Below, piece by piece: positions 4,715-35,578 of a stretch of 38,743 bases of DNA. The stretch spans positions 176 through 38,918 of the forward strand of contig PLTC01000140.1 of the NCBI GenBank assembly GCA_003165295.1, given 5' to 3'. Numbering within the stretch: position 1 is the first letter of the stretch; the number at the start of each line of letters is the position of its first letter. Below the pieces are notes generated by a model. That model ran no database searches. It was not told the origin of the DNA and saw only the letters and a program-made list of their open reading frames with translations. Position numbers and translations under genes: made by a program. Origin of the DNA: Rhodospirillales bacterium (GTDB lineage Bacteria > Pseudomonadota > Alphaproteobacteria > Azospirillales > Azospirillaceae).

Positions 4715-5935
4715 TCACCATTTGACCTCGGGGAACGGCGGCTGGTCGCCGGCCGGTTCGAGGTGACGGTTGATTCGTTCCGCGACGTAGGGAATCGTCC
4801 AGAGCCACAACGCCTCGCGCAGATAGAACACCGTCTTGTCCTGCATGGACAACTCCTGATAAAGCGCGCGCAGGATCGCGAAACCGGCCTGGATCTCGTT
4901 GACATCGAACACCTGCTTGCTGAGTCGGTCGATTTCAGTGGCCACGGACTCGCAAAGCGTGTCCCGCGAGGCGCTGTCGCTGTGGGCGATCTGGCTCTCG
5001 GTGAACAGGCAACCGCCCGGCCCGCCGGGACTGTAAAGCGCATCAATGCTCCGTTGGCGCCGCGCGTCCAGATCATTGAGCGCCGAGAGGAAGGCGCCAG
5101 GGGCCAGGTGACGCCCGTGGGGCGTGGTCGCCGGGTCGTCGAAGGCGTTGAGCGGGACCCAGCGCCGCTGGTCCCGCGGGGCCGAGAGGAGGGCGAATGC
5201 CCAGACGATCCCACCGGAGAGATAGACCCGCTTGTGGAGCGCCAGGTCGGGAAGGTGTGCCAGCTCCGCCCGGATCGCCGGACGCAACTCATGATCGATG
5301 ACCGAGGCCAGGGCGTCATCGTAGGACAGGCCGGGGTTCGGCCCTTGCGTCAGGTCCCTGGCCCGCTTTGCCAGTTGCTTTACGCCAAGTTCCCTCCACT
5401 CAAAAGGAATGTGTGGCGGCGTTCCCCGGGTGTTCAGGAAGTTGCCCTTGATGTTCCCGCTGCCAATATCGATCAGCACCACCTCGCGGCGGCGGGCTTT
5501 GATCAGGCCGGCAACCGCGCCGTCGAAGTTAAGCCGGGTTTCCGTTGATGCGGCCAGGATATCGGGATCAAGCCCAAGTCGCCGCGTAATGGCATCCCGC
5601 AACACGTTTTTGAACTGCTCCGTTTCAGCAAGCCCGCTGCTGACCACCACATAGATATGGCTGTGGTCCACGCGGTACTGATCCACCATTTCCACCACCA
5701 GACTATCGGCCTGCGCCAGCACCGCCGCCAGATTCGCCGGCGTGCCCGGAGCCTGTTCCAGCATCGGCAGTCGCGCCGCGATCTGCAAACCGCGGCTTTC
5801 GCCGTCCTCGACGACAAAGCCCCGGATCGCGCTGGTACTGAACTCGATCACGCCGTAGGGGGTCGCGAGCGCCGGAACCGATGTTGCAGATAACACTACG
5901 AAAAAAAGGCCGATCAGCAGGTACCGCAGTGTCAT
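4715..5935 (-). CDS. Exported actin-fold (ASKHA, Ppx/GppA-like) protein
   Basis: The protein is 406 residues from the ATG at 5935, which has AGGAG 8 nt upstream and lies 5 nt after the previous stop. A signal peptide (TLRYLLIGLFFVVLSATS, cleavage near PALA-T) leads directly into a Ppx/GppA-like actin fold. The phosphate-1 loop analogue is VIEFSTSAIRGFVV (29-42). A strand-helix block VVVSSGLAETEQF (96-108) and the turn STETRLNFDGAV (130-141) resemble the Ppx ATSAVR and EEAR segments. Phosphate-2 is VVLIDIGSGNIKGNF (152-166), and the adenosine-type loop is VYLSGGIVWAF (237-247). The usual first Asp is Glu here. An actin-fold nucleotidase-like domain sent to the periplasm is unusual, because its normal ligands (ATP, polyphosphate, pppGpp) are cytoplasmic; it may bind another phosphorylated ligand or act as a structural fold. 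It is the last gene of operon I. The fold is fairly sure; activity is unknown. Confidence 0.72.
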   Translation of the reverse strand: MTLRYLLIGLFFVVLSATSVPALATPYGVIEFSTSAIRGFVVEDGESRGLQIAARLPMLEQAPGTPANLAAVLAQADSLVVEMVDQYRVDHSHIYVVVSSGLAETEQFKNVLRDAITRRLGLDPDILAASTETRLNFDGAVAGLIKARRREVVLIDIGSGNIKGNFLNTRGTPPHIPFEWRELGVKQLAKRARDLTQGPNPGLSYDDALASVIDHELRPAIRAELAHLPDLALHKRVYLSGGIVWAFALLSAPRDQRRWVPLNAFDDPATTPHGRHLAPGAFLSALNDLDARRQRSIDALYSPGGPGGCLFTESQIAHSDSASRDTLCESVATEIDRLSKQVFDVNEIQAGFAILRALYQELSMQDKTVFYLREALWLWTIPYVAERINRHLEPAGDQPPFPEVKW

Positions 5936-5940
5936 GGCTT

Positions 5941-7368
5941 CTACTCCTGTCGCCAAAGCCCATTGCTTGGGTGTTGCCCGATACACTCTTTGTATGACTT
6001 CGGATTATCGCCTCGATCGAAACATACCCATACCACCAGCGGCGTCTGTTTCATAAGCACGTCATTGTCGCAGGTTATCTGCACCTTGCGAATGTCAGGC
6101 GTGTTAGGCTGTAGCTGAGACTTGTCTGCTGCCGTAACTGCTATGGTTGCGCGCTCCGGGCATCCTAAGAATAGCGACGACGGGGTTGCTCCATAGCTGA
6201 GAAACTGCTTTGGCCAGCTCACGTCTTCAATTTTCACATCATCGGTTCCAGGGTCGAGATTTGATCGGACGAGAACCGGGCAAACAAAGTTGTGGAGTTG
6301 ATCCATGCTCAAATCATTAAGTCTACCGGCGGTCGGGCAGCCGGCATTTTGCTCTCGACTTCGAGAAGGAGATGACAGGCTAAGGGATAAGTTTATCAGA
6401 TGTTTGTATTCTTCGGTGACCGTCTCGTTATCCTCGGACTCCGGCATTACGGTAAGAGTTTGTAGAAATTTTGAGCTTCCAACGGTTATATCGCAAGATT
6501 GCATTGGCCTGTCATTCCCCATGAGTTGATCGCCGGTACCCTCGCATCGCAAGCTGCCAATATTGGATTCATTCGCAGCATCAATACGAAAATCCTTGAT
6601 AACGAACGGAAAATTATTATTTGAATCATTGTTGCTGCGACTTTCAATTGCAATAGAAATATTATAACGCATTACCAAAGGATGAAATATAACAAACGCA
6701 CTGTTGCACGTCTCATTCTTTCCACTGATTGAGCAAAGCGGATTTATATGCTGGTGGTCAATGAGCCCGAGTTCAAGTCGGACTCCAGACTTAATCCAGG
6801 ATGGCTCTGTAACCTTAAGCGTATAAGTATATGATTCCCGCCTATGGCCGGTCGACCGTGTCGTTGGCTCGAAGGAAAAGCTTTTACCAGTCAAGGCATC
6901 CCAATTTAGTATACTGTCACTTGGTTGCTCTCCCGGGAAATTGAGCTTACTCGATGCGACAATAAAAACATCATCTTGAGAAATGCTCTCGCTGGAGTAT
7001 GATTGATCTTTTCTAATGAAGACAACGTAACGGTTCTCAGGGTGATACCTAGTCCCGACCGGGGCGTTGAACGTGATGCCAAATTGTTGAAAAAGTTGTT
7101 TTGCCCTGTTTGCCCCGGTATCGTCATATCGATTTACCGGCACATACCGGTCATACCGCGAATTACCATCCGGCATTTCAATAGGTTTAGCCGTAAAGAG
7201 TACGTCGGCCTCTGTTGGTGGCGATGGCGTCGGGACAAGTCCGGCACCAGATGCGGTATAAAACGCCGGAATTGCGACCATCGCAATGCCAATGGCCAAT
7301 ATTATCAGCCTTTTTGCACGGGGAGACGAAGCCAACCCGCCACGCATATCTTCATTTATTTTGAGCAT
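5941..7368 (-). CDS. Membrane-anchored periplasmic protein of unknown function, cysteine-rich
   Basis: Not recognised. From the ATG at 7368 (GAGG 9 nt upstream) it has 475 residues; an ATG at 7383 is the main alternative. One N-terminal TM (RLIILAIGIAMVAIPAFYTASG) anchors a long extracytoplasmic part rich in beta strands, with at least nine cysteines that look paired, for example NPLCSISGKNETCNS and a C-terminal VVWVCFDRGDNPKSYKECIG. No enzyme motif is visible. The gene is much poorer in GC than its neighbours (18 of 60 bases at 6601-6660). It lies between the two-TM protein and the actin-fold protein of operon I with gaps of about 22 and 5 nt, so co-translation and a shared envelope complex are likely. 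Confidence 0.7.
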   Translation of the reverse strand: MLKINEDMRGGLASSPRAKRLIILAIGIAMVAIPAFYTASGAGLVPTPSPPTEADVLFTAKPIEMPDGNSRYDRYVPVNRYDDTGANRAKQLFQQFGITFNAPVGTRYHPENRYVVFIRKDQSYSSESISQDDVFIVASSKLNFPGEQPSDSILNWDALTGKSFSFEPTTRSTGHRRESYTYTLKVTEPSWIKSGVRLELGLIDHQHINPLCSISGKNETCNSAFVIFHPLVMRYNISIAIESRSNNDSNNNFPFVIKDFRIDAANESNIGSLRCEGTGDQLMGNDRPMQSCDITVGSSKFLQTLTVMPESEDNETVTEEYKHLINLSLSLSSPSRSREQNAGCPTAGRLNDLSMDQLHNFVCPVLVRSNLDPGTDDVKIEDVSWPKQFLSYGATPSSLFLGCPERATIAVTAADKSQLQPNTPDIRKVQITCDNDVLMKQTPLVVWVCFDRGDNPKSYKECIGQHPSNGLWRQE

Positions 7369-7390
7369 TAAAGGCATCCTCATCGGCCTA

Positions 7391-8089
7391 TCACGGTCTG
7401 CGCTCATAGCAATCGTTGTCATCAGAAGTCGCGGTTTCGCAGGTGTCATTGCTCAAGTGTGATGAAAGTTCCTGAGACAACCTTTTAATGTGCCCCTCAC
7501 AGGCTTGGGCGTTGGTTAAAAGCGTCTTATACCACTCCGATGGTATATCGAAGTGTCCAGCCTCTCCGTTTCCGTTGTCGTTAACGTATTCTGGTTGTAG
7601 TTGTAGTAATGAGGCGGAGAGAGCTTGATAATTAATTATTAACTGCTTTAATTGCAGTAACTTACTGCCGCATGTGAGGAAGTATCCAGACTGAAATGCT
7701 TCTGAGATTCCAACCGAAGAAAGGAAATAGAATCCGAGGGAGCCAATTTTAGCTCTATGAGCATGGTCATAAAATTCAATCAAATTTACTTCACTGAGCC
7801 TCCGAATATTATTATCAAGCTCCTGCGTTGATATTGTAATAAGCGCCTTGCGCTTGTCGATGTCCTTTATCGTTTCAACATGGTCCGTCGCCAGGAGGGT
7901 GACGCTGGTTACCATAAAAGCCGGCATTACTGCGATTATCGCGGTCACCCGATATTGCAGTATTGGATTCTTGCCATATCGCTGTAGCAGGCGATGCAGC
8001 CGGGCGCTAAAGCCAATTGTTCCAATAGTCAACAGCACGGAAAAAATAGCGAGTCCAACTAGGGTGGTATGTGTTACAAGTCCCGACAT
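7391..8089 (-). CDS. Small membrane protein with two N-terminal TM helices, unknown function
   Basis: Not recognised. The protein has 232 residues; the ATG at 8089 has a strong AGGAG 6 nt upstream. TM1 (about 8-28, TLVGLAIFSVLLTIGTIGFS) and TM2 (about 46-68, VTAIIAVMPAFMVTSVTLLA) are followed by a helical domain of about 160 residues with possible coiled-coil character (TISTQELDNNIRRLSEVNL). The acidic C-terminus contains two cysteines. With two TMs the C-terminal domain lies on the same side as the short N-terminus. Base composition is AT-rich like the next gene. It belongs to operon I, 50 nt after the vWA gene. Confidence 0.7.
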   Translation of the reverse strand: MSGLVTHTTLVGLAIFSVLLTIGTIGFSARLHRLLQRYGKNPILQYRVTAIIAVMPAFMVTSVTLLATDHVETIKDIDKRKALITISTQELDNNIRRLSEVNLIEFYDHAHRAKIGSLGFYFLSSVGISEAFQSGYFLTCGSKLLQLKQLIINYQALSASLLQLQPEYVNDNGNGEAGHFDIPSEWYKTLLTNAQACEGHIKRLSQELSSHLSNDTCETATSDDNDCYERRP

Positions 8090-8139: not shown

Positions 8140-9900
8140 TTATTCCTCCCGATACAACACCGTTGCAACCGTGGTCGCATTCGGCTTCGCTTCGAGCGTT
8201 TGGGACAGCAGGGGCGGCTGACCGGTGCCCATGGTGGCTTCGAGGGTGTAGAAGCCTGGGCGGACTCTGATGTCGTCGCCGGTCCAGGGGCGGGGACTGG
8301 CGGCGGGGTTCGCGGGAATCAGGCGCCAATGCAGGGCGGCGGCCTTGGCCGGGGCGATCGGAGCGCCGTCGGCGTTGATCACCCGGTGCCGGACCACGGG
8401 GGCGCAGAAGCGGTAGTTAACCGCCACGGTTTCATTACCGGCCACCTCGAAGTCCTGGGAGGTGATGGGCGCCAATCCCCACGACGCCGCGACCCGGTAT
8501 CGGCCCGGGGGCAGGGAAATGTCGAGGGCTCTGGCGCCCCGGTAGTGCTCGACGACCGAACCGGCGGGCTCGATCCGGTAAACCAGCAACTCGATCTCCC
8601 TTTGCAGGGCGTCGAGCTCAGCCGGCACATTCCAGCCGTCGATGGCGGCCGACACCATGAGGCGGCCGTTGGGTTGGTCCACCGTGAAGGTCACGGCGGC
8701 GTCCCCTTCAACTGCGAGGTGAACGTCCCGGAGTTGGGGCGGACCGCCATTGGCCTCCAGGGAAATCCGATAGTCTCCCGGTTCCAGGACCGCCTTCACG
8801 GCCCGTCCGGTCCCGCGGGCGGCGACGGAGCTGTCGGTGCGGCGGACCGTCCAACGCAGGCCGGTCTCGTTTGCCGCGCCGGTGCCGGCTGCGGTCATGG
8901 TCAGGTGGCTGGCCCCCAACTCCACCACCACCGGTTTGTTGTCGCCCGGGACCAGGTCCACCCATTGTTCATGGGGTGGGCCGTTGCTGCCCGACGCCGC
9001 CGTGACCACCAGCCGGTAATGCCCCGGCGGGACCTCGAAGACGCCGGTTCCGTCGCGGGTTGCGGGCGTCGCCGGCGACTCGGGTTCAGGGACAAGAGTC
9101 GCTTTGAGAACGCTGCCGCCGGCCGGTGGCACCGGCAGGTGCTGCGGGCCGACGATCGCGGACCAACCCAGCCGGGCCGGTGGCGGCGGCCGGTCAAGGC
9201 AGGTCGCGCTGCGCATCGCCGCGCGCAGGTCTTCCCGACTGTAGGCATCGAACAGCTTGCCATGGCTGCGCTGGGTGAAACAGGCGAGTTCCGGGAGCGA
9301 CTCGCGACTGGCCCGGAAGCCGATGATGTCCACCAACGCCACGGTTCCGGCAGCGGCGTAAGCCCCCGAGGCGCTGCAAGGATCCTTGCGGCAGGCGTCG
9401 GGCTCCTCCTTGCCGTCGGAGATCAGGACCACCTTGGCGTGATGAGGGCGGGCAAGGTCATTGGCGCGAAGCAAGGCATCGGTAATCGGGGTGGTGCCAA
9501 TGGGCAGCAACCGCTTCAACTGGTCATCGATCCGTGCCGCCACCGTGGATTTCGGGCCGCTGTCCACCACCGTTTCAATACTGTCACAAGAGCCCCGATT
9601 CCGGTGGCCGTAGGCGATGACGGCGATCTCCGTCCGGTCGGGAAGCTCCGAGACCAGACGGCGAAATTCATCCCGCAAAATTTCGTAACGGGTCCGGCTG
9701 ACGCCGTGATCGTCCACAGGCGCCCACATGCTGCGGGAATAATCGAGAACGAACACCAACGAAGAGGGCGGCCCGTCGCACCGTTCGTCGGCCCGTCCGA
9801 CGCCGCTTACCGCGGCGACCGCGACTCCGGCCAACATCGCGGCCATGCCCGACCGATGACGACGGCCGTTGCCGCCTTTCCCGGCCCGAATATCGTCCAT
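8140..9900 (-). CDS. Exported von Willebrand factor A domain protein with C-terminal beta-sandwich domains
   Basis: From the ATG at 9900 (TGATG overlap with the upstream stop, GGGAGG 6 nt before) it has 586 residues. An N-terminal signal segment (SGMAAMLAGVAVAAVSGVGRA) is followed by a vWA domain with a complete metal-ion-dependent adhesion site: DYSRSM in the first strand, GTTPITDAL for the Thr, and LISDGKEE for the second Asp. CRKDPCS and later single cysteines suggest disulfides. The remaining 350 residues are several repeats ending in PGxYR, such as VPPGHYRLVV, EPGDYRISLE and LPPGRYRVAA, the pattern of small carboxypeptidase-regulatory or Ig-like beta sandwiches. vWA domains bind protein partners through Mg2+. 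In operon I it follows the metal-site-deficient paralogue-like protein. Confidence 0.88.
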   Translation of the reverse strand: MDDIRAGKGGNGRRHRSGMAAMLAGVAVAAVSGVGRADERCDGPPSSLVFVLDYSRSMWAPVDDHGVSRTRYEILRDEFRRLVSELPDRTEIAVIAYGHRNRGSCDSIETVVDSGPKSTVAARIDDQLKRLLPIGTTPITDALLRANDLARPHHAKVVLISDGKEEPDACRKDPCSASGAYAAAGTVALVDIIGFRASRESLPELACFTQRSHGKLFDAYSREDLRAAMRSATCLDRPPPPARLGWSAIVGPQHLPVPPAGGSVLKATLVPEPESPATPATRDGTGVFEVPPGHYRLVVTAASGSNGPPHEQWVDLVPGDNKPVVVELGASHLTMTAAGTGAANETGLRWTVRRTDSSVAARGTGRAVKAVLEPGDYRISLEANGGPPQLRDVHLAVEGDAAVTFTVDQPNGRLMVSAAIDGWNVPAELDALQREIELLVYRIEPAGSVVEHYRGARALDISLPPGRYRVAASWGLAPITSQDFEVAGNETVAVNYRFCAPVVRHRVINADGAPIAPAKAAALHWRLIPANPAASPRPWTGDDIRVRPGFYTLEATMGTGQPPLLSQTLEAKPNATTVATVLYREE

Positions 9901-11111
9901 CACGGTCCTCCCTGGCAAATTTGCGCGGTCCGCTCGCCAAGGCCGGCCATCATGCCCGGGGTGGCCTTCGTGCCCGGATCGCCGCCGCCAGGCGCCGCGG
10001 CCAGGTGCCTGATGTCGGGCTGGTCAGCGCAGTGGCCGGGCATGACCTGAATGTCCTGAAGTTGCAGCGCCACCGAGCTTGGACGGGCCGCCGGCGGTGG
10101 CGGCGGCTCCGGCTTTGGCGGCCCGCCGCCGCCGCCATTCGGGGGGGCGGGAACCGGCGTCTGGGGCGCCGCCGCATGTTGCCCCGATGTCCCGTTGGCG
10201 CCGCCGCCGCTGCCCCCCGGATCGACGGGCACCATCGGTGCGACCGCCCCCGCGGATTGCGTCGAACAGGCGGGCAACTGCGTCGGTGATGCCGAGACGG
10301 CGCGGGTGGTGCAGGATCCGCTGAAGTCCGGTGGGTCGAAGCGAACCGGCTGAGCAGCATCCGGGCAGTCAAGTAGCCCCTGTCCCCGGAATATGACCTC
10401 AGGCTGGTTGTTCTGGCGCCTGCGAAGGTCTGCCAGCACGTCTAGGAAACGCAGCGTCTCGGGCGGAATGACCCGTCCCTGACCGGGGACCAGCACGGTA
10501 ATGTCCAACCGGAAGGGGCTGTCAACGATCTCCTTGAGCCGCGGATACCGCACTTCGGGGCCGGAAAAGCAGGGCGCCGTTGCGTAGTATTGATCGCCCG
10601 ACTTCACGTCATTGGACATGCTGTCGGTTACGATGTAAATTTTGATCGTTTTGGCCTGTTCCAGCGCCATCGGCGTCAGCGTCGTTTTTATCTGATCAAA
10701 GTAGCTGTGATGGTGCTCAATCGCCAAGGCGATCGCGTACAGCAGCTCAAGCTCAGTACGTCTATCATGAAGAGAAATTCGCGCCTCAAGTGCGCGCATT
10801 CTCTGCATCGTGTCCGCGACGAATTGTTCAGGCGCTTGCGCCTCGTCCTTAACAAAGGAATTCCCGGTGGTCCAACTGATGATCTGAAAGGAGTTCGAGC
10901 GCGGCAGGTGCCGCGCCAACGCAACGAACGATTGAAAGTTCTGATCCCTGGCCAGGACGTCGGGCGGAGTCTCCAGGTGGAACAGGGATCCGTTAACGAT
11001 TATCGCCTGGCCGAACCATTCCTGTGCCCGGCAGGGATTGCAGAGCCACGGCGCCATCACCACCAGCACGGAGAATATCACCGCGACAGAAAGCAGGGGA
11101 CCTTGCCGCAT
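9900..11111 (-). CDS. Exported protein with vWA-like fold lacking the metal site and proline-rich tail
   Basis: It is read as 403 residues from the ATG at 11111 (GAGGG 5 nt upstream; ATG 11114 is the neighbour alternative). Signal peptide is LLSVAVIFSVLVVMAPWLCN with cleavage near CRAQ. Residues about 30-240 alternate strands and helices in vWA order: strand AIIVNGSLFHL, helix FQSFVALARHLP, strand FQIISWTTG, a long helix block, strand IKIYIVTDSMSND, then LDITVLVPGQG and a helix. The first-strand DxSxS is absent, so no canonical metal site is expected (inference). After that comes a low-complexity Gly/Pro linker (PKPEPPPPPAARPS). The last 60 residues contain CADQ and QICQ, a possible disulfide. 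It is the first gene of operon I and overlaps the intact vWA gene by one base, consistent with a pair acting together. Confidence 0.65.
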   Translation of the reverse strand: MRQGPLLSVAVIFSVLVVMAPWLCNPCRAQEWFGQAIIVNGSLFHLETPPDVLARDQNFQSFVALARHLPRSNSFQIISWTTGNSFVKDEAQAPEQFVADTMQRMRALEARISLHDRRTELELLYAIALAIEHHHSYFDQIKTTLTPMALEQAKTIKIYIVTDSMSNDVKSGDQYYATAPCFSGPEVRYPRLKEIVDSPFRLDITVLVPGQGRVIPPETLRFLDVLADLRRRQNNQPEVIFRGQGLLDCPDAAQPVRFDPPDFSGSCTTRAVSASPTQLPACSTQSAGAVAPMVPVDPGGSGGGANGTSGQHAAAPQTPVPAPPNGGGGGPPKPEPPPPPAARPSSVALQLQDIQVMPGHCADQPDIRHLAAAPGGGDPGTKATPGMMAGLGERTAQICQGGP

Positions 11112-11123
11112 CATCACCCTCAA

Positions 11124-11473: not shown

Positions 11474-14400
11474 ATGCTGGGTGATGAATTTCGACCTACT
11501 TTGCTGGTCGGTGTCGGCGGCACCGGGTGCGTCATTGCCGAAGAGGTGTATGCTACGGCGTTGTCAATGGGGGCCAACCGCGGCGGTAAAATAGCGGTGA
11601 TCGGCATCGACACCGACGAAAACGACATGCGGCGCCTGAGTGACCTCGACAAGCGGCAGCAAATTCGCTTCAGTTCCTCCGAAACCATTTCCCGCCTGAT
11701 CACCCAGCTCCGTGATTACCTGTCGGGATGGTTCGTCGATGAGGAGACGCTGCCGGCGGAAATCCGCTCCATGACCTTACTTGATGGCGCGATGCAAATA
11801 CGAATGCTGACCCAACTGGCACTTTACGACGCGGTGCTGCGCAGTCAATTTGTCGATAAGATGGAACGGGCGGTTGCCCAACTGGGCCTCCTGGACAGCC
11901 GCGAAGTTCAAAGCGGCGGCATTAATATTATGATGGTCGGTTCCCTTGCCGGGGCGACCGGTAGCGGTTCATTCCTGCAAATTGCGCTGCTGTTGCGTGA
12001 CATTTGCCAGCGCCGTCGCCTCGAAGGCGCCATTCGAGCGATTTTTCTGCTCCCCGACGTCTTCGTCCGTGGCGCGAATCTGCCCGCCGAACAGATAGAA
12101 AATATCTATGCCAACGGCTATGCCAGCATCAAAGAACTGAATGCCGTTAATCTGAAGGTTACGGGGCGGATTGACCGTGGCGACTTCGAGTACCAGTTTG
12201 CGCCCGGATACCCGTTGCGTCGGGACGCAATGCCGTTCAACAGCGTCACGTTCATCGACTGGGAGAATTTAACCGGCGGCAATCTTGGACGAAATATTGT
12301 TTATTATCGGAAAATGACCGCCCGGGCGGTCTATCTTCAACTGTTCAGTCCGATCGGCCAACGCCTTCAAAGTGTTACCGTTAATGATGCCCGAGCTAAA
12401 ATGGCGGCGGCGGCCGCCGGCAGTACCGAAATTTACTCGGGCGTCGGCGTCAGCGCCGTCGTCTACCCGGCTGAGGGAATAAAAAACTATCTCAGTCGCC
12501 AACTGGCCCTGATCAGTCTTTCCGGCGATTGGTTGCGACTGGATTCGTTATTTATTGATCGGGTCCGTCGTTATAATGACGATAAGGCCGCGGGAAATCT
12601 CTCGGTCAGGGCGCCCGTTCGCGGTCTCAGCTACGTCGAGGATTTGGAGCGGTTGTCGAAGGACAGGGTATTATTCTTTCGGGATATCTTCGATAAGAGC
12701 AACCATGAAATCGAAATGAAAACGGGTGAGCGCGAGTTGCGGCCATTTCATATCGATTATCTTGACTCCCTGCTCGAAAAAATTTCTTTTGATTTCTGGG
12801 ACGCCAACGATGACCTGAAAGCAATCGCGGAATTACTGAAGAAGCCGCTGGTCGATGACAACCTTAAGAACACCAAGACGTTGGCAGAAACCACTCAGCG
12901 CTGCGAACGTCAACTGGACCGTAGTTTGACCATACTTGAATCGGCGCTGCGAACAAAGCCGATCGACCTGTTTTTTAATCTCCAATCGGCGGGGGAGTCG
13001 GGGAGCGAGGCGGAGTGGAAAATCCATAATATACAAGCCCACGTCATTGCCGGCGGCCCTCATCTGGTGCAGGTACGCTATTTTCTGTACAAGGCGTTGG
13101 CGGAACTCGAACGCCGACTGGCTGGCCTGTCGGTCAAGGTGGCGCGTGACCAGCTCTTTAAAGTGGCAAACGCCTTCCGGCGTGACCCCGATGAAATGGA
13201 GAGTCCGACCAGTCGCGGAGCCCCCGAGGTGTTGGAGGAGGCGCGCAACGCCGTCAATCCCGGCCTGTGGAAGGCTATGTGGGCGGGCGATGGCGGCTTT
13301 CGGATAAAATATACCAGCTATTACAATTCTTCATTGCGGGGCCTGCTGGCCTATGTTGAGACCTCTGTCCGCAGCACGGTGCTGACCGCGTTGCGGGACG
13401 AGCTTGAATCGTTAACCCGTGAAGTTGAAGGCGTGTTCCAGACTCTGGCGGATTTTCGGGATCGGCTGGCGGCAGATGTTGAGCGACTGGAAGCGGAACA
13501 TGAGAGAGGTGCAGGCACCTTCGACGGGAATGTCTTTGTCTGCGCCACCAAGATCTGCAAGAAGTCCCTGTGGAAGGAACTCTCCGAAGCAACTACCGGA
13601 CTGGGACTGTCGTCGCAGGCCAATCGGACGCTGGCGGATGCTGTTTATCGGATATATCGCGACAAGCAGCGCAAGAAGGCGAATAAATCGGCAGGTGAGC
13701 TTCGAGATTTGTTGGAACGGGCGATTTTCGTTGATTTCGCCGGTAGGGCTCTGGCCAATTTTGTTTCGTTTCACGACTTTAGCGTGATTCGCGCGGTACA
13801 AAAGGAGGCCGAGATCGAGGGCGGTGACTGGTTGGACCGACTGCGCCATGCGGTGGATGTCGCCGGCAGCCAGTCCGAACCGTTCCTGCCCTTGCTGTCA
13901 CGCGATGCCGGACAACGAATTATGTTTTGGGCGATTCATCCAGATACGCGCGTTGATGTCGGTGATGATCGTCAATTTGATCAATTGTTCACCGCCAACC
14001 AGGGAGAAAGCCCGTTGGTCCTTGAAGAATTTTCCAGGCAGGAACTCTTGTGCATGAATACAAGGGTCAATCTCAATCTTCGTGAGTTACAAAAACTCTA
14101 TCCCGGCGAGACTCGGAACGGAATGGCGGTGATGCGTCCCGGAATTTACTACAACGCATATAAAAATATGACAGATGCCATTGCAGCCGCCGAGCTGAAA
14201 GATCCACGGCGGCCAAAATCTCGATATTTCACTCCTCATGTGCATAAGGACTGGCACAGGCCGGGCGCGATACCGGAAATATTTGCAGAACTTGATGATA
14301 ACATTAGAGACAAAACGTATCAATCCTTTGTTGCCGGGTTGGCCATCGGGGTGCTCCTTAAGGCCATGCACTACGGCAAAGAGCGGACGCTGGTCCGAAC

Positions 14401-14920
14401 CACCGGCCAGGCGGTTCCGAATCCGATTGAGCGCGCGCTCTGCGAGAGCCACGATGATTGGGAGATTCTGAACGCCCTGAGCCGGCGGCCGGAGCTGGTG
14501 TCGGCGGTTCTCGAGGTTTGGCAGGCGACAACCAAGGACGCCCCACAACCTTCGGCCGATCGCGACGCATGGTTTGACGCCTTGCCCGCCGTGACCGCTC
14601 TGTTGCGGGACGGCCACGGGCTGCTCCGGCAGCTTCTGGCCATCGGCGCGATTCGAACCAATGAGCACGAACGCGACGCCGATGTCCGCGGCGCGGTCAA
14701 GGCGTTCGCCATTCTGTTGGCGGGTCTGGTCGACCTCTATCGGGGAGACCTGGCGGTCGAAGGGCGCAGAGGGGTGAAGACGCAGCTGCTCGAGACCGCT
14801 CGGGACCAGGCCTTCGCCGGCCTGACCGGCACCGCCATCCGCCCGGAAACCGTAACGACCCTCAAGACGGTGTTCGAAGGCGGTCTTGCCGATTTTCGCG
14901 GTGATCATCGTTATTTCTAG
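11474..14920 (+). CDS. FtsZ/tubulin-superfamily GTPase-like protein with long C-terminal extension (Tubulin_2-like)
   Basis: The protein has 1148 residues; the ATG at 11474 has GAGGAG 8 nt upstream. The N-terminus has the tubulin-type nucleotide fold: strand TLLVGVGGTGCVIAEEV (9-25, glycine-rich loop 1), IAVIGIDTDEND (40-51, strand and ribose-contact region), and the tubulin signature loop in the form MVGSLAGATGSGSFLQIA (154-171), matching the G-T-G-S/T-G pattern of loop T4. A conserved later helix region begins NGYASIKELNAVNL. There is no signal peptide or TM, so it is cytoplasmic. Residues about 380-1148 are mostly helical with no recognised domain; this makes it about three times the size of FtsZ. 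It heads operon II, followed by two membrane proteins that could anchor a filament. Family assignment is by motif; GTP binding and polymerisation are inferred. Confidence 0.8.
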   Translation: MLGDEFRPTLLVGVGGTGCVIAEEVYATALSMGANRGGKIAVIGIDTDENDMRRLSDLDKRQQIRFSSSETISRLITQLRDYLSGWFVDEETLPAEIRSMTLLDGAMQIRMLTQLALYDAVLRSQFVDKMERAVAQLGLLDSREVQSGGINIMMVGSLAGATGSGSFLQIALLLRDICQRRRLEGAIRAIFLLPDVFVRGANLPAEQIENIYANGYASIKELNAVNLKVTGRIDRGDFEYQFAPGYPLRRDAMPFNSVTFIDWENLTGGNLGRNIVYYRKMTARAVYLQLFSPIGQRLQSVTVNDARAKMAAAAAGSTEIYSGVGVSAVVYPAEGIKNYLSRQLALISLSGDWLRLDSLFIDRVRRYNDDKAAGNLSVRAPVRGLSYVEDLERLSKDRVLFFRDIFDKSNHEIEMKTGERELRPFHIDYLDSLLEKISFDFWDANDDLKAIAELLKKPLVDDNLKNTKTLAETTQRCERQLDRSLTILESALRTKPIDLFFNLQSAGESGSEAEWKIHNIQAHVIAGGPHLVQVRYFLYKALAELERRLAGLSVKVARDQLFKVANAFRRDPDEMESPTSRGAPEVLEEARNAVNPGLWKAMWAGDGGFRIKYTSYYNSSLRGLLAYVETSVRSTVLTALRDELESLTREVEGVFQTLADFRDRLAADVERLEAEHERGAGTFDGNVFVCATKICKKSLWKELSEATTGLGLSSQANRTLADAVYRIYRDKQRKKANKSAGELRDLLERAIFVDFAGRALANFVSFHDFSVIRAVQKEAEIEGGDWLDRLRHAVDVAGSQSEPFLPLLSRDAGQRIMFWAIHPDTRVDVGDDRQFDQLFTANQGESPLVLEEFSRQELLCMNTRVNLNLRELQKLYPGETRNGMAVMRPGIYYNAYKNMTDAIAAAELKDPRRPKSRYFTPHVHKDWHRPGAIPEIFAELDDNIRDKTYQSFVAGLAIGVLLKAMHYGKERTLVRTTGQAVPNPIERALCESHDDWEILNALSRRPELVSAVLEVWQATTKDAPQPSADRDAWFDALPAVTALLRDGHGLLRQLLAIGAIRTNEHERDADVRGAVKAFAILLAGLVDLYRGDLAVEGRRGVKTQLLETARDQAFAGLTGTAIRPETVTTLKTVFEGGLADFRGDHRYF

Positions 14921-19900: not shown

Positions 19901-20612
19901 TCGCCTGGTTAACGATGTGACGGTACGGCACCAATTGGTGCATACCAACTTCAAACGGGTGACCAGGGGTTATTACCGTCTGGACGAAGGCAGCCAGCCA
20001 TTTGGGCGCAATCAAAGAAATCCCGCGCTCAGCACCATGCGCGATATGACCATCCAGCGGCGGATGAGTATAATATCAAAGTTGATAATAAGCAATATTC
20101 CTTCGAACTGGATTGCCGGTGCTGATGGAAAGTCCATTGAAATAGTCGCAAGAACTTTGGCTGTCTCGCTTTATGATTTGATCCGGTCGCTGTTTCCGGC
20201 CCAATGCCACCGTATCGCGGTGGTCTGGCGCTGTGCGCCACCGGCGTCCGTTTCGTCGAAGGCCACGAGCGATGCCCGGTGCTCGACGGCGGCTGCGCTC
20301 GACACCTTCATCGACCAGATCTACCCAAAGCTGGACCCTCCGGCCATCGCCGAGCCGGACACTCTGGAGCTGCTGGTTATTGAAGATTCGCAGCTTGACC
20401 TGGGGGTCGCGCGCGCGATCCACAACGAGGCCGATCGAATTCTCCGTGCCCTTCGGGAATACGTCTCGTGGTGCGCCCGGGATGGTAATGACGAGTATTA
20501 CCGTTTTGGAGCCAGCGAGCCCGGCAACCTTCTGTCATTTCGAGCCGGCAGGAGCTTTCTCAATTATTTGACATTGCAAGAGGCAGAAGACGATGCCGCC
20601 GATGACAACTGA
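16992..20612 (+). CDS. Polytopic membrane protein with C-terminal degenerate helicase/DUF1998-like region
   Basis: ATG 16992 (or GTG 16989; stop-start overlap TGATG, GGAGGG upstream) gives 1206 residues. About eight TM helices fill residues 15-365 (for example VVGGILLAIVFHSF, FVFVVFFGVLAFLIPCL, FWLGSLVVLLELLAW). The soluble part (about 385-1206) is predicted cytoplasmic. Its order resembles a superfamily-2 helicase of the YprA/DrmB type with dead motifs: an ATP-loop position without GKT, a strand LEYVVILGMESLDLPF (about 543-558) where DEAH should stand, and VSVLVQSEPM (about 576-585) where the SAT strand should stand. It then shows a DUF1998-like end: NGTWYRVKGV (about 914), VTRGYYRLDE, and LELLVIEDSQLDLGVARAIH (about 1123) followed by a helix ending VSWC. 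This similarity is by eye and needs profile comparison. It is an operon II core member. Confidence 0.62.
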   Translation: MQNISQAPGKSGDAIVRIVVGGILLAIVFHSFFDTADLFWVLENAAENAVVIWAIAGLAIIIVACGLALLFSGRTIYFIKFVFVVFFGVLAFLIPCLRGFWGFIGHLGWMLPAFMVVIGFWLSLRGIYYFSESNTVKLKLAASLLMALVAMSVTFGGTGRGIDYLIGTTSSNEVLHLVLESIQILCNDIFNSVNRIDRFQYFIVMWLGLVIYLGIRACSLIFSPFFREHLMEYGRRWLPSLLWKTISLIYALSQVHRKRGGLSPVMPPGPKSVITTWVESFGTPENWSAVAPRRSYESLLRYVAVGFGLVILAHPWAWDLGPDAQVLGWLGIGGEQYDDGMAALERFFWLGSLVVLLELLAWQSRLPPTAGPAAAQSIADAEPPPVPSLEAFKSELLARFGSGRKRPVALTLTVVGREEENSAETGATIERVLREVVNHQSNVLIEETMNRRHIDFLVRLIGATRNHGAVILMVAPDIEFQRYYDLLRAECQNRIDQLTLRWYVAGEMAPDASQMYTVVMVRESAFESGFISQIEGFRRIIRRLEYVVILGMESLDLPFLRLDLQRLWTMLEGRTVSVLVQSEPMVGLASEVDNTIHSYTRQGLSDDRGTVSRGFTRESLAADRNGTCHWLIWNSDEAFEKELTTSYLPGTTQRMPIGVVLTIAALKGNFRCANTSRLDRRDASVWRVAEEILRNKRDPANAAIADFCAGQGVGGHDGSGGGPAPLVAIIDDHANLLPALRRNLNHRNEAGLLVQVVAEPYPLRDFLTERLATGSGQAPVSTDLLWPMAPCMRGSVTELLYQIKQKLENDTLSVTELRGLFQRAPRHVLESIGVTHTRAGVLELFRLILGRDPPPLAQTWTDAHEGILSSRDGHLGALPFSFSRRLTGPQGVSLNAQWAADDWGLAYAVGTEHLINGTWYRVKGVAPDHCSLEHCLPSSLATARPRYRFVNRYDLGGDREVAAFEEDKSDRLVNDVTVRHQLVHTNFKRVTRGYYRLDEGSQPFGRNQRNPALSTMRDMTIQRRMSIISKLIISNIPSNWIAGADGKSIEIVARTLAVSLYDLIRSLFPAQCHRIAVVWRCAPPASVSSKATSDARCSTAAALDTFIDQIYPKLDPPAIAEPDTLELLVIEDSQLDLGVARAIHNEADRILRALREYVSWCARDGNDEYYRFGASEPGNLLSFRAGRSFLNYLTLQEAEDDAADDN

Positions 20613-23346
20613 TCGCGGGGGCCGGCGCGCCGACGGAACGGGGGTGTCGCAACCTCGGGTGCGGATGGCGGTGGCTCTGCTGGCGCTGGCGCTGGCGCTG
20701 GCGGCCTCGGGCTGGCCCTCCGCCGCGCAGGCCCGGGTGGTGGGGATCATGTTTGACGACTCCGGCAGCATGATGCCGCGTAGCCATCTGCCAAGCTTCG
20801 CCATCCAGTTGTTGATTTCATCTCTCGACGGGCGGGATGATCGGGATCGGGTGTTCACCACGCAATTGTCCCAGTTTCTTTACGCGGTATCGGTCGGCGG
20901 CGACCTGATCTCTCTGCCCTTTCATTCCGATCAGGTCGATTCCGACGGGATCGACCGATTGCTGTCCAGCCCGACGCTGGCGGGACCGCCCTATTCCCCG
21001 CGGGCGATCGGCACCCGCGACCTACAGCAGGCGTTGATCGATACGATTGGCGAGAAGTGGCCGGTTATCCGGCCGGGCACCGGCACCCCTTATATTCCCA
21101 TTGAGGTGATGCTACGGGTGCTGGCACGGGAGACAAAACCTGAGGAGCCGGCCTTTCTGGTGATCGTCACTGACGGCGACTTTGACAATGACAAGGAAAT
21201 GCCGCTGCCCTCGCCGGAGCACCTACGGGACTCTTATGAAAAGTATCGCAGTCAATTTAAGGGTCCGCTCCATGTATTCTTTCTGTTGATTGCGTCTGAA
21301 GATGAGGCGGCGGTTGAACAACAAAAAGTTCGGGCCAATTTGCTCGAAGTATTTAACGGCAAGGCGCAGGACGGCGCCTATACCGTCGGCGATGTCGGGT
21401 CACTGATTGCCGCGGTCAAGGCGATCGTCGGCCGCATCTCGGCAACGGATCTGGACCGCTTCCAATCTTATCTGAGCGTACAGGGAAACGATCTCGTGGT
21501 CGACAGCCCGCTGAGCCTGTCCCGCATCACCATCATGTCCACGGGCAGCGATCAGACTCCGCTGGCGAAGCTGATGAAGACCAGCTTCGGTGAGGTGGAG
21601 CGGTTGGAATTCGATGCCCGGATGAACGATGTCGACCGGCAGTGGCCGGCGATCGGACGCCAGAGAGCGCGGACCGTTCATCTGCGGCAGTCTCCGGCGT
21701 TGCCACCTGGAAAGTATACTTTGAGTTTCGATCGTCCTCCGGGGACCGGGGTGACCGTGCTGTTCGAAGCCAATGTGACTCTGAAGGTCGAAATCCTTGA
21801 TGGCGAAACCAATCTGCCGGTGCCGCCGACCAATAATCGCGTGACTTTGGTGCTTCGCCATGATTACAAGGCTCATCTCACCCTGGTCGATCGCGATAGC
21901 GGGAACACCATCGCGACGCCGCCCCTGAGCAAAGCGGTTTACCAGGCATTTTTGTCCCGCCCCGCCGACACCCGCAGTCTGACCGTGGTTGCGGATCCGA
22001 ACCGGCCCGGCGTCGCTTACGCCGATTTGCGCCCGGAGCAGGTCGGTGCTTACGACCTTGCCACCAGTATGCGGTTGCCGGGATTTCTGACCACCACCGG
22101 ACAGCCGGCGGCGCTGGACGTCGTGAACTCCCTGGTAAGCCTTGATACCCGGATCGACCCGGAACAACCCTGCCCGGCGGCGCTTTCGTGCGGGTCCCAG
22201 GGCATTCCCGTTCCTTATGACGGCTCTTCCGACACCAGGAGAGTCGCGAAGGCGGTGATAACCTTCCGCGGCGCTCTGCCCGGTGGCTTTACCGTTCAAT
22301 TGGAGGGTGGGCCGCCGGGCTTCGAACTGCGATATGCCGGTCAGCCGCTGAACTCAGATACGCCGGTCATGGCATCGCCGGGGGAGTCCCGGACCATCGA
22401 ACTGGTGCGGACGCCGGCGTGGCGTCCAGCCACGGGGAATGCGGGGCAGGGAGGGTTTCCGTTGACCCTGATCGCGACCGCGCGGGCGCCGCTCACGGGC
22501 TCGTCCCGGGTCGAACGGCGGGGCATTCCCCTGGTTCCCACCGCGACTCTGGCGGTTACGGGCAATGACCAGGATCCGACGGGGGTGTCACCGCCCAGGC
22601 TGGATGCCGCGGCCCTGGAGAACGGCACCACCGGCTGGAGGCTGGAAGCACGGGACACGCTGAAACCGCCGACGGTGAACGATCTTCATGTCAGGATTCC
22701 CTCGTTGTTGCTTTCTGCCGCTGTCGAAGTGGACAAGGGCAGGATCCGGGTGATTCCCAGAAGCGCGGCGTGGTGTGCATGCCTGTTATGGATCGATGGC
22801 GGTATGCACGATGTCATCGTGACCTACACCAGCGACAACGGACTTCAGACGGCCTCGCAGCGGACCAAGGTCGACATCGCGCCCGGCAAACGGGAGATTT
22901 TGCAGGGCTGTGGGTTGCTGGCGCTGGCCTTGCTGCTGCTGGTCTGGTTGATCGGGGCGCTGGCGGCCGCGGCCAGGAGGCGGCGTTTTCCCCCCGGCTC
23001 CTTTCTGAAAGTCGATGAGGGGGGGGCCGTTCCCCGCTATCGCGAGCTCAAGGGCAATCCCTGGTCGTGGCTGACCTGTCTTGTATGGTTTGCCATCAGG
23101 GTTCCCCACGAGCGTTGCCAGGAAGGCGGCTTGACCCTTGAGGCATCAAGCCATGGCGCGAATATCATCTGCGATCGCCAATGGCCTAACTATTTTCTCG
23201 ATCGAATGGGCCAGACGCTGGCGGAAATTCACCCGGAGCCGCGCCCGAATTCGGTTATTGCCCTGTTCTGGGGTGACAAGCTGCAAGAGGCGGTAGCCAA
23301 GGGCAGCAAGATAACCCTCAAGGACCAGATCAACGATGACGACTGA
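20593..23346 (+). CDS. Membrane-anchored vWA protein with signal peptide and C-terminal TM
   Basis: The protein has 917 residues; the start overlaps the previous gene by 20 nt (ATG 20593; ATG 20602 is an alternative). The signal peptide (VALLALALALAASGWPSAAQA) is encoded by a run of CTGGCG units. The vWA domain follows at once with MIDAS VVGIMFDDSGSMM, a Thr loop region around YIPIEVMLRVL, and FLVIVTDGDFDND. Several beta-sandwich segments follow (residues about 290-760). A single TM (about 770-792, LLALALLLLVWLIGALAAAA) with a following RRRR stop-transfer leads to about 120 cytoplasmic residues. Topology is therefore periplasmic vWA plus cytoplasmic tail, well suited to link the periplasmic partners to the cytoplasmic tubulin-like scaffold (inference). 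The intact DxSxS suggests Mg2+-dependent partner binding. Confidence 0.85.
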   Translation: MPPMTTDRGGRRADGTGVSQPRVRMAVALLALALALAASGWPSAAQARVVGIMFDDSGSMMPRSHLPSFAIQLLISSLDGRDDRDRVFTTQLSQFLYAVSVGGDLISLPFHSDQVDSDGIDRLLSSPTLAGPPYSPRAIGTRDLQQALIDTIGEKWPVIRPGTGTPYIPIEVMLRVLARETKPEEPAFLVIVTDGDFDNDKEMPLPSPEHLRDSYEKYRSQFKGPLHVFFLLIASEDEAAVEQQKVRANLLEVFNGKAQDGAYTVGDVGSLIAAVKAIVGRISATDLDRFQSYLSVQGNDLVVDSPLSLSRITIMSTGSDQTPLAKLMKTSFGEVERLEFDARMNDVDRQWPAIGRQRARTVHLRQSPALPPGKYTLSFDRPPGTGVTVLFEANVTLKVEILDGETNLPVPPTNNRVTLVLRHDYKAHLTLVDRDSGNTIATPPLSKAVYQAFLSRPADTRSLTVVADPNRPGVAYADLRPEQVGAYDLATSMRLPGFLTTTGQPAALDVVNSLVSLDTRIDPEQPCPAALSCGSQGIPVPYDGSSDTRRVAKAVITFRGALPGGFTVQLEGGPPGFELRYAGQPLNSDTPVMASPGESRTIELVRTPAWRPATGNAGQGGFPLTLIATARAPLTGSSRVERRGIPLVPTATLAVTGNDQDPTGVSPPRLDAAALENGTTGWRLEARDTLKPPTVNDLHVRIPSLLLSAAVEVDKGRIRVIPRSAAWCACLLWIDGGMHDVIVTYTSDNGLQTASQRTKVDIAPGKREILQGCGLLALALLLLVWLIGALAAAARRRRFPPGSFLKVDEGGAVPRYRELKGNPWSWLTCLVWFAIRVPHERCQEGGLTLEASSHGANIICDRQWPNYFLDRMGQTLAEIHPEPRPNSVIALFWGDKLQEAVAKGSKITLKDQINDDD

Positions 23347-26086: not shown

Positions 26087-28048
26087 CTAAAATAAGTCAA
26101 TCGGTGTCGTATTTCTTCTGATCGGAGTGTAGTGGATAACGGACAACCCAATCGTCAGGCAGACCATGCCGATTGCCCAGAAGATGACCAGGACATCCAA
26201 AACACTGAATGGCATGGTTACGATAACACTTTGAGACCCCAATTTGGTCACGGCAAGATCGTAGGCGGCCGAAAAAGTAAAGAAAAAATTTATAACCAGC
26301 GACAGAAATATGATTATTACAACCGGTAGCAGCATGCCGATTGCGGTACTCAGGGTAAGTTGAATCGCGATCATCGACCTGATATCGCGACTGGTCATTC
26401 CTTGCGCCAAAAGAAGACCGTATTGCTCGCGGCGCCGCTGAATTAAGGTGTACAGAGTCAGGCTCATCAGGTAGAGCATAAGCCCGCCAAACACCGCCAG
26501 CAGCGGCCAGGCCATCCACGCAAGTAATTTCTGTAAAAAATCAAAGCGCAACAGGCTTTCTTCGTAGGACCTCTCAAATTGAAAGGCGCGAATGCCGGGC
26601 TGGTCGGGGCTTTCGAAGGTTTTCAAGGCATCGACCACCGCAATAATATCGTTCCGATCGCCCATCGAGACCGTCGCGGCATTCAGGTTGGCCCAGGTCT
26701 CGATTCGCCCTTTGGCACGCCGGGCATCATCGTTACCGGCCAGGCAATCGCTGTTGTATCGCTGGCCAAGGTCGCGACGGGGAAGGCTGGGGCAGGGCAG
26801 CGTCAGCCAGCCGTCGCCGGCATATCCGTAGGCGACCACCCTTTGCCGGTCACCTGAAAGGACGGTGCCGGCGGCGTTCGCCCCGGTCGAGTTGAGACAG
26901 GAGGTCACGAAGCGTTCGGGCAACGGCGGCGACAGAGTCATCACCACATCCTCAAAGCCGTGTCCCGGGATGGGCGGCATGCCGACCCGTTTGCCGAGAC
27001 ACAGGGCCAGGGAATGGACAATTTCCCGGCGTTTTTCCGGTGTGATATCCAACCCGGACGAGCCCACGATCCGAACCTTTCCGATGCGACCGGCCTCGGA
27101 CCCGGTCGCTCCGGGGAAATAAGGCAGGTCGTTGACCCGGCTGTGGCCGAACGCGCGGACCAGCGCGAGCGGCGCCACGAACGAGACATTGGGTTCGGCG
27201 CTCAGGCTTTCTGCCCAACGGACCTCGAAGGGAATGAGTTCCTGGTTTTCCCCGATGCCGATGGAAAGCCAAAAGACCCGCGGGCCGGTATGTCGGGGCG
27301 TCGCACCCGAACCTTCGGCCGCAGCCGCTCCGCGACCGGTACAATCGGGAGTTATTTCGCCGACCGGGGGAAAGTTGTGCGCGAAGTCTTCGGCGACCTG
27401 GGGGGGCAGCAGCGCCGCAAGTGCCGCAAGATAGGCGTTGCGGTTCAGGTGACCGAAATTGTCACGGTTCAGGATCAACTGTGGTCGGAGTTCCGAGGTC
27501 GGGGCCGCCGCGCTGCCGAAGCACCGCCGCCATAACGGATCATCCTCGAGCACCGCCCAGCCTTCGAATTTGAGGGGACGGCCGCCTGCCTGGGTATCCC
27601 AGACGTCCGGCGACGGCAGGTCAATGGTGTGGTCCGAGGCGTCGATGAACTGGTAGGGGTGAAGGACCAGTCCGCGAAATCGTGGGTCTCCGGCCCCTGC
27701 CGCCCGAGACCGGAAGTCGGTGATGACGGTCCGATCGATACGGTTGATCCTGGCCACATTGCCGACCACCTGAATCCCGATCCCTTCCTGGGGATCCTTG
27801 CCGAGCATGACATCGGCCAATTGGACGACGAAGCCGCGCTGAAGCGATAAAAAAAGCAGGCAAACCAGCGCGATAAAAGATATAAATCCCGTAAAGGCGA
27901 TGAAATCACGTCCGCAATGGGGACCGCTACGGACGAACAAGGCTTTCAGGCCGCCAATATACTCGGATATGCCGAGAAACATCCAAAGAGGATAGTCCGG
28001 CCAGCGGCTGATCGTGATCAGATGTCGGTGAAAAAAAGTGATCATCAT
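26087..28048 (-). CDS. ABC transporter permease, MacB/FtsX-type, with very large extracytoplasmic domain
   Basis: The protein has 653 residues from the ATG at 28048, which overlaps the ATPase stop as ATGA. Topology is one N-terminal TM (about 50-72, FIAFTGFISFIALVCLLFLS), about 430 extracytoplasmic residues, then three TMs (about 508-532, 562-590, 612-640). The cytoplasmic loop LIQRRREQYGLLLAQGMTSR followed by DIRSMIAIQL is the coupling motif of the MacB/FtsX/LolC (type VII) superfamily. These proteins transduce ATP-driven conformational change across the membrane and do not usually pump through a TM channel. The extracytoplasmic domain is larger than the roughly 200-residue MacB one and has several cysteines. 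It is the last gene of operon III, downstream of exported vWA proteins, so a mechanotransmission role is favoured over efflux. Confidence 0.82.
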   Translation of the reverse strand: MMITFFHRHLITISRWPDYPLWMFLGISEYIGGLKALFVRSGPHCGRDFIAFTGFISFIALVCLLFLSLQRGFVVQLADVMLGKDPQEGIGIQVVGNVARINRIDRTVITDFRSRAAGAGDPRFRGLVLHPYQFIDASDHTIDLPSPDVWDTQAGGRPLKFEGWAVLEDDPLWRRCFGSAAAPTSELRPQLILNRDNFGHLNRNAYLAALAALLPPQVAEDFAHNFPPVGEITPDCTGRGAAAAEGSGATPRHTGPRVFWLSIGIGENQELIPFEVRWAESLSAEPNVSFVAPLALVRAFGHSRVNDLPYFPGATGSEAGRIGKVRIVGSSGLDITPEKRREIVHSLALCLGKRVGMPPIPGHGFEDVVMTLSPPLPERFVTSCLNSTGANAAGTVLSGDRQRVVAYGYAGDGWLTLPCPSLPRRDLGQRYNSDCLAGNDDARRAKGRIETWANLNAATVSMGDRNDIIAVVDALKTFESPDQPGIRAFQFERSYEESLLRFDFLQKLLAWMAWPLLAVFGGLMLYLMSLTLYTLIQRRREQYGLLLAQGMTSRDIRSMIAIQLTLSTAIGMLLPVVIIIFLSLVINFFFTFSAAYDLAVTKLGSQSVIVTMPFSVLDVLVIFWAIGMVCLTIGLSVIHYTPIRRNTTPIDLF

Positions 28049-35566: not shown

Positions 35567-35578
35567 GCTGGCATCCAC

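Follow-up and report, generated by a model that had tools for sequence, protein, structure and literature searches.

Gene and gene cluster

The window, meaning the whole stretch of 38,743 nucleotides analysed here, carries on its minus strand, at 4715..5935, a gene for an exported Ppx/GppA-fold protein of 406 residues, which was defined by reading frame, alignment, sequence profile and structural model. The frame is intact, running from an ATG at 5935 to a stop at 4715; an AGGAG ribosome site lies 8 bases upstream of the ATG, and the codon-position GC is 0.67/0.45/0.78. The frame of the neighbouring upstream gene ends at 5941, so the gene is the last of a five-gene minus-strand run. Because a relative in Azospirillum lipoferum matches at an E-value of 5e-21, the glycine-rich loops are conserved and the N-terminal segment occurs in none of 48 ordinary Ppx proteins, coding by chance was discounted and the gene, as first observed, is real.

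The first 24 residues (5864..5935) were assigned as a signal peptide with a predicted cut between ALA and TP (residues 22-25), using the sequence, a hydropathy control and the low pLDDT of this region in the model. The loops named in the original prediction were all located: the phosphate-1 loop EFSTSAIRG at residues 31-39 (5819..5845), the phosphate-2 loop DIGSGNIK at residues 156-163 (5447..5470), of which DIGSGN spans residues 156-161, and, from the alignment, the adenosine-type loop LSGGIVWA at residues 239-246 (5198..5221), which carries the family signature YLSGGxVW. Comparison of family and ordinary rows placed Glu31 in the first loop where PPX has Asp, and Lys163 at the end of the second where PPX has a catalytic Glu (E143 of the Deinococcus radiodurans enzyme, DrPPX); from the same comparison and the D. 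radiodurans paper (PMC11234463), Glu132 (5540..5542) was identified as the kept equivalent of the PPX catalytic Glu (DrPPX E114). The glycine-rich loops are among the best-conserved parts of the 49-row alignment, in which E132, G139, D156, G158, Y238, G241, G242, V244 and W245 are invariant, and the window protein retains the key residues Glu31, Glu132, Asp156, Lys163, Trp245, Lys367 and Trp379.

Pfam searches and hydropathy were used to describe the remaining genes of the cluster. Directly upstream in the minus-strand run lies a 502-residue protein without Pfam match (5941..7449), whose N-terminus holds a single membrane segment and whose C-terminal part is large, preceded by a 232-residue protein with two membrane segments (7391..8089), an exported vWA protein (PF13519; 8140..9918) with the MIDAS motif DYSRSM and, as the first gene of the run, an exported protein of 407 residues (9900..11123; hydropathy). 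A hydrophobic segment lies towards the N-terminus of all five products of the run. A divergent operon on the plus strand starts with an FtsZ-like protein (11474..14920) that matches Tubulin_2 (PF13809), which we take to be the FtsZl1 family of Makarova and Koonin, at an E-value of 1.1e-44 and has neither an export signal nor a membrane segment. Further along, two more exported proteins without Pfam match (20593-23346 and 28842-31409) have the vWA-type MIDAS-like motifs DDSGSM and DGTESM, and an FtsX-like permease and ABC ATPase occur with an FGE-sulfatase-like protein (26087-28845 and 34271-35578), a set that presumably resembles TagR/S/T upstream of T6SS kinase signalling. A PGA_cap (CapA-type) protein (35809-37611) lies at the far end of the cluster.

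The original prediction had also placed an actin-fold protein outside and a tubulin-fold protein inside the membrane. Both genes are present in the 38-kb cluster of the window, but the pairing is not conserved: a Tubulin_2 match was found in 2 of the 16 genomes or records with relatives, in neither of them shown near the actin-fold gene, and Tubulin_2 is present in 23 of the 81 Azospirillaceae genomes searched, of which the one that contains the window is alone in having a close relative of the exported Ppx-like protein. The other 26 matches in the 81 genomes were at 8.5e-13 or weaker, and the 19 of these that were fetched as loci were assigned to the ordinary Ppx control. A conserved actin-tubulin pair was rejected on these counts, and the gene for the exported Ppx-like protein is best regarded as accessory to this single cluster.

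Fold assignment

Taken alone, the window protein gave weak matches to Ppx/GppA (Pfam E-value 0.026; 3cer E-value 0.096) and, with 14.4 bits, stayed below the curated cut-off of 27 for the Pfam family Ppx-GppA (PF02541). Sequence homology to the Ppx/GppA superfamily was established by profile, the 49-row profile matching the Ppx structure 2j4r at an E-value of 1.2e-11 and PF02541 being matched by 38 of the 49 members at E-values up to 0.01 (best 8.1e-15). Overall, Ppx models matched 38 to 41 of the 49 members and MreB models one in each library, and no NTPDase family was among those listed for the 49 members at an E-value of 0.01.

A structural model was calculated with AlphaFold using 48 relatives, yielding a pTM of 0.83 and a mean pLDDT of 81.3, and was compared with known structures, as had been proposed with the original prediction. 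In the Foldseek search (E-value 1.1e-11) the top 31 rows were Ppx/GppA proteins, followed by NTPDases, and VIA-align gave a Z-score of 25.0 to the Aquifex aeolicus Ppx/GppA protein 1t6d over 287 residues at 2.9 Å, with NTPDases next at Z-scores of about 19-22 (best 22.1, to 5u7x). The model therefore has a two-lobed actin fold with Ppx/GppA proteins as its closest structures, so that the Ppx/GppA-like fold claimed at the outset was borne out by profile, model and both structure comparisons. The predicted fold is neither unrelated to this type nor built around a retained signal segment, residues 1-19 of the model having pLDDT values below 50.

Bacterial actin filament proteins (MreB, FtsA, ParM) were not the best profile match, and MreB and FtsA were absent from the 50 structure-match rows shown. 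Actin and tubulin folds form filaments in other families and the two genes share one 38-kb cluster, which is what could suggest a periplasmic structural actin that assembles into filaments and works across the membrane with the tubulin-like protein; given that Ppx proteins and NTPDases are the closest folds, that MreB models match a single member of 49 in each library, that the tubulin pairing is not conserved and that ATP is not expected in the periplasm, we regard such a role as extremely improbable.

Relatives and phylogeny

The plasmid search (P0001) returned one relative, from A. lipoferum 4B, at an E-value of 5e-21 over 96% of its length, and the family-wide search added a second Azospirillum copy. 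No match was found when genome contigs were scanned with the single sequence of the window protein, and a three-row alignment (the window protein and both Azospirillum copies) used as the query identified 79 loci in genome contigs, from Acidobacteria, Planctomycetota, many Flavobacterium, Chitinophagaceae and other Bacteroidota, together with a fragment from the cyanobacterial genus Chamaesiphon. In a first class-wide profile search the loci inspected held ordinary Ppx apart from the window's own gene, and these were excluded from the family and kept as a control set.

In a tree built from 30 family rows and 25 ordinary Ppx rows, one branch with a support of 100/100 divided the two groups. The exported Ppx-like proteins are thus a separate and widespread clade that covers Azospirillum, Acidobacteria, Planctomycetota and Bacteroidota as well as the cyanobacterial fragment, and no earlier description of it appeared among the open PMC papers listed by the literature searches. 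Two ordinary Ppx/GppA genes are present elsewhere in the window's genome, so that housekeeping polyphosphate turnover need not rely on the exported Ppx-like gene.

The window protein is among the most divergent rows of the tree, with a branch of 1.87, has Ser33 where Gly is usual and Arg38 where Lys is usual, and is the sole close relative among the 81 Azospirillaceae genomes, as might be expected of a decaying or newly acquired copy without function. The intact frame of 406 residues, the ribosome site, the codon-position GC, the position of the gene at the end of a tight run and the retention of all seven key residues listed above argue against this explanation, which we consider very unlikely.

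Export and membrane topology

The N-terminus, MTLRYLLIGLFFVVLSATSVPALA followed by TPYG, was judged by eye to be a typical Sec signal with an A-x-A site, and its best 12-residue window has a mean hydropathy of 2.86. With a threshold of 2.2, 78 of the 81 family members scored (L072 plus the L084 and L080 fragments being left unscored, and the identical sequence of L004 and L078 counting twice) have a hydrophobic 12-residue segment before loop 1, as opposed to none of the 48 ordinary Ppx proteins of the control; the remaining three members lie just below the threshold at 2.04, 2.04 and 2.16. In nearly all structure-match rows listed, the fold alignments begin at residue 21-26, leaving the signal segment outside the fold.

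Three architectures among the relatives support a position of the actin-fold domain on the outer side of the membrane. In two acidobacterial genomes (L088 and L169) a membrane segment flanked by three Lys/Arg residues on the kinase side and one on the other is followed by the actin-fold domain; in L063 the domain lies behind a membrane segment, ahead of which the protein has a short N-terminal stretch containing paired cysteines; and in Azospirillum sp. B506 the broken gene continues, after a change of frame, into a region with the envelope domains PBP_like_2 and OmpA. At this last locus (L078:3255-5812) the actin-fold frame is interrupted and the next frame encodes the C-terminal end of the domain before PBP_like_2 and OmpA.

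The cleavable signal sequence and periplasmic location put forward in the original prediction are supported by the N-terminal segment of the family and by the kinase fusions, and export of the window protein is accordingly very probable as judged from sequence. The similarity in fold is all that speaks for an ordinary cytoplasmic Ppx whose N-terminus merely resembles a signal, and this explanation is highly improbable in view of the presence of the segment in 78 of the 81 members scored and in none of the 48 ordinary Ppx, the order of kinase, membrane segment and domain in L088 and L169, and the two ordinary Ppx genes found elsewhere in the same genome.

Active-site residues

The catalytic residues of D. 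radiodurans PPX are D7, R86, E114, D136 and E143, and its kcat/Km falls from 2.28 to 0.05 in the D7A and to 0.04 in the E143A variant (PMC11234463). Equivalent positions, which were derived from alignments and motif order rather than from residue-by-residue superposition, were compared between 30 family rows, consisting of the window protein and 29 representatives obtained from 81 with a similarity filter, and 49 ordinary rows. From a further row set, A3, L003, L004, L080, L084, L132 and near-copies were omitted. Two of the five residues are kept throughout, the equivalents of E114 (Glu132) and D136 (Asp156) being present in 30/30 family and 49/49 ordinary rows. The other three are altered: D7 corresponds to Glu31 in 29/30 family rows, as against Asp in 49/49 ordinary rows; R86, an Arg in all 49 ordinary rows, has no fixed counterpart in the family, which is mixed at this position (103); and E143 is replaced by Lys163 in 29 of the 30 family rows and by Arg in one, as against Glu in 48/49 ordinary rows. 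In addition, the Arg of loop 1 is changed to Lys in 28/30 family rows, and the third loop reads YLSGGxVW in the family. A Flavobacterium subgroup (for example L098, L115 and L129) has the second loop altered to DIGGQRTK, DIGAKTTK or DIGAQTTK, with the Lys retained.

The window protein shares this pattern, with two of the five PPX catalytic residues kept and three altered, and its cleft appears from the aligned residues to be preserved but with more Lys and fewer catalytic acids than that of PPX. With three of five catalytic positions changed, ordinary hydrolysis of ATP or polyphosphate, to which the original prediction had pointed, is unsupported. With Lys substituting for the second catalytic Glu, Glu for the metal-binding Asp and no counterpart to the catalytic Arg, the protein most likely binds a ligand without hydrolysis of the PPX type.

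As an alternative, the protein could be an active hydrolase that attacks nucleotides or polyphosphate outside the cytoplasm; it would then resemble the ecto-NTPDases, use Lys163 and Glu31 as an altered active site and scavenge phosphate. NTPDases are the next-best fold match (Z-score 22.1 to 5u7x), Glu132 and Asp156 are kept in 30/30 rows and an MFS transporter is encoded near some Flavobacterium relatives, all of which would suit such an enzyme. However, the Glu to Lys and Asp to Glu changes and the lost Arg each strike a residue important in PPX (PMC11234463), an NTPDase family was absent from the matches listed for the 49 members, and the kinase fusions described below point to sensing, making a hydrolase a rather unlikely, if serious, alternative.

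Kinase fusions and neighbouring genes

In L088 and L169 the order is kinase, membrane segment, domain, the actin-fold domain being the outward-facing half of a receptor Ser/Thr kinase. In L003 (A. lipoferum), L063 and L170 the adjoining upstream gene encodes a single-pass kinase composed of a kinase domain, one membrane segment and a tail, and in L061 (397-1557) and L171 (8197-9633) homologous TPR proteins with a membrane segment (E-value 3e-31) adjoin the exported gene, with long Pro/Ala-rich tails that both end in RAH. In the acidobacterial loci L059 (1-378), L060 (498-1040), L062 (8994-9635) and L172 (9853-10443) the exported actin-fold gene has immediately upstream of it one for a small protein in which a short conserved motif is joined by a low-complexity linker to a C-terminal membrane segment; three of the four proteins have an N-terminal signal, the start of the L059 protein being cut off by the contig end. 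The motif reads EKKxSLSKYGPEDAFPGA in three of these proteins and EKKRAMHKLDPIDIFP in L062, the latter form being found by eye and with a looser pattern, and across all loci the exact motif is confined to L059, L060 and L146/L172 (one place).

An upstream neighbour with a membrane segment and a tail was thus present in 9/9 loci outside Bacteroidota in which a separate neighbour is visible (L003, L059-L063 and L170-L172), a set that is non-independent, as L059, L060, L062 and L172 are of one kind and L062 and L172 come from one genome. The fused L088 and L169, L078, the fragment L084 and the window, whose upstream gene has an N-terminal membrane segment, fall outside this count. A crude background of about 16 of 97 other called genes with the same layout was obtained for acidobacterial and planctomycete loci, with crude gene calls and non-independent loci. 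The nine neighbours together with the two kinase fusions suggest that single-pass signalling proteins have the exported domain as an outer module that can be detached.

No upstream partner with a membrane segment and tail was seen in Azospirillum B506 (L078). Most loci are from Flavobacterium, in whose relatives there was no constant membrane-tail neighbour and an MFS transporter and a DUF1231-like gene, considered as partners, were each found at 7 loci. A general pairing with a kinase was rejected, as a kinase match was absent at an E-value of 1e-15 from the one Flavobacterium genome searched (G474). Some Flavobacterium loci (L069, L079) hold two copies of the exported actin-fold gene, and in L072, L119 and other Chitinophagaceae or Bacteroidota loci a TPR-like region of about 100 residues, recognised by eye and in L119 without Pfam match, precedes the exported domain.

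Proposed function

On balance we favour the reading that the exported Ppx-fold protein is a binder of a phosphate-bearing ligand rather than a cutter of the PPX type, and that it signals to a single-pass partner. The protein would be exported to the periplasm, where the signal peptide would be removed and the mature protein would fold into the two-lobed Ppx/GppA-type actin fold. Its cleft, predicted to retain the glycine-rich phosphate loops with Lys for the second catalytic Glu, Glu for the metal-binding Asp and no catalytic Arg, may bind short polyphosphate, a pyrophosphate group or a nucleotide without cutting it in the manner of PPX, and the open or closed state of the cleft could be relayed to a single-pass membrane partner. 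In Acidobacteria this partner would be the fused Ser/Thr kinase; in the window we infer a likely partner in the neighbouring envelope complex, made up of vWA and single-pass proteins, beside the FtsZ-like operon. Against this stand the different chemistry that Lys163 could serve, the two catalytic acids kept in every row, the lack of a kinase beside the window's gene, and the divergence of the window protein (branch 1.87, Ser33 for the usual Gly). The protein is nevertheless probably an extracytoplasmic binding or sensor module, a polyphosphatase role being improbable.

More tentatively, and with a good deal less confidence, a widespread Ppx-fold clade might have been relocated to the cell exterior, where a former polyphosphatase would serve as a non-hydrolysing receptor domain for phosphate-rich ligands (polyphosphate, extracellular nucleotides, pyrophosphate lipids), fused to or docking on the tails of single-pass kinases and scaffold proteins and, in the window, feeding an FtsZ-like/vWA envelope machine. 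To our knowledge, extracytoplasmic actin-fold proteins are few and those known are nucleotide-cutting enzymes. A clade that keeps the phosphate loops, has Lys for a catalytic Glu and supplies the outward-facing half of a receptor kinase would represent a novel class of sensor domain in bacteria; sensing of polyphosphate or extracellular nucleotides would become testable in soil bacteria and Flavobacterium, and an annotation of such genes as "exopolyphosphatase" would mislead.

Comparison with known systems

Gene neighbourhoods of FtsZl1 and vWA proteins were described by Makarova and Koonin (2010; PMC2875224), and the window shares with these clusters, as presented in the available part of that paper, the Tubulin_2 protein, vWA proteins and envelope proteins. 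The exported Ppx-like protein is not among the members described there (available part of PMC2875224), nor was it found paired with a Tubulin_2 protein in the other genomes searched.

With the Ppx/GppA phosphatases (PF02541; A. aeolicus 1t6d/2j4r, Helicobacter pylori 6pc0, D. radiodurans 8jgo), whose fold ordinarily serves to degrade polyphosphate within the cell, the exported clade shares the two-lobed actin fold, the phosphate and adenosine loops in register, the catalytic Glu and the Asp of the second loop. It differs from them in export, in the change of the second catalytic Glu to Lys and of the loop-1 Asp to Glu, in the loss of the catalytic Arg, and in its own YLSGGxVW loop and separate clade. 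Ecto-NTPDases or apyrases such as CD39 and Legionella NTPDase1 are known extracytoplasmic actin-fold enzymes and the second-best fold match (Z-scores of about 19-22), but their loop motifs differ and their families were not listed for the 49 members.

Receptor Ser/Thr kinases with outer sensor domains, such as the PASTA kinases, consist like L088 and L169 of a kinase, one membrane segment and an outer domain. In L088 and L169 the outer domain is instead a Ppx-type actin fold, whereas most relatives carry this domain as a separate exported protein, as does the window.
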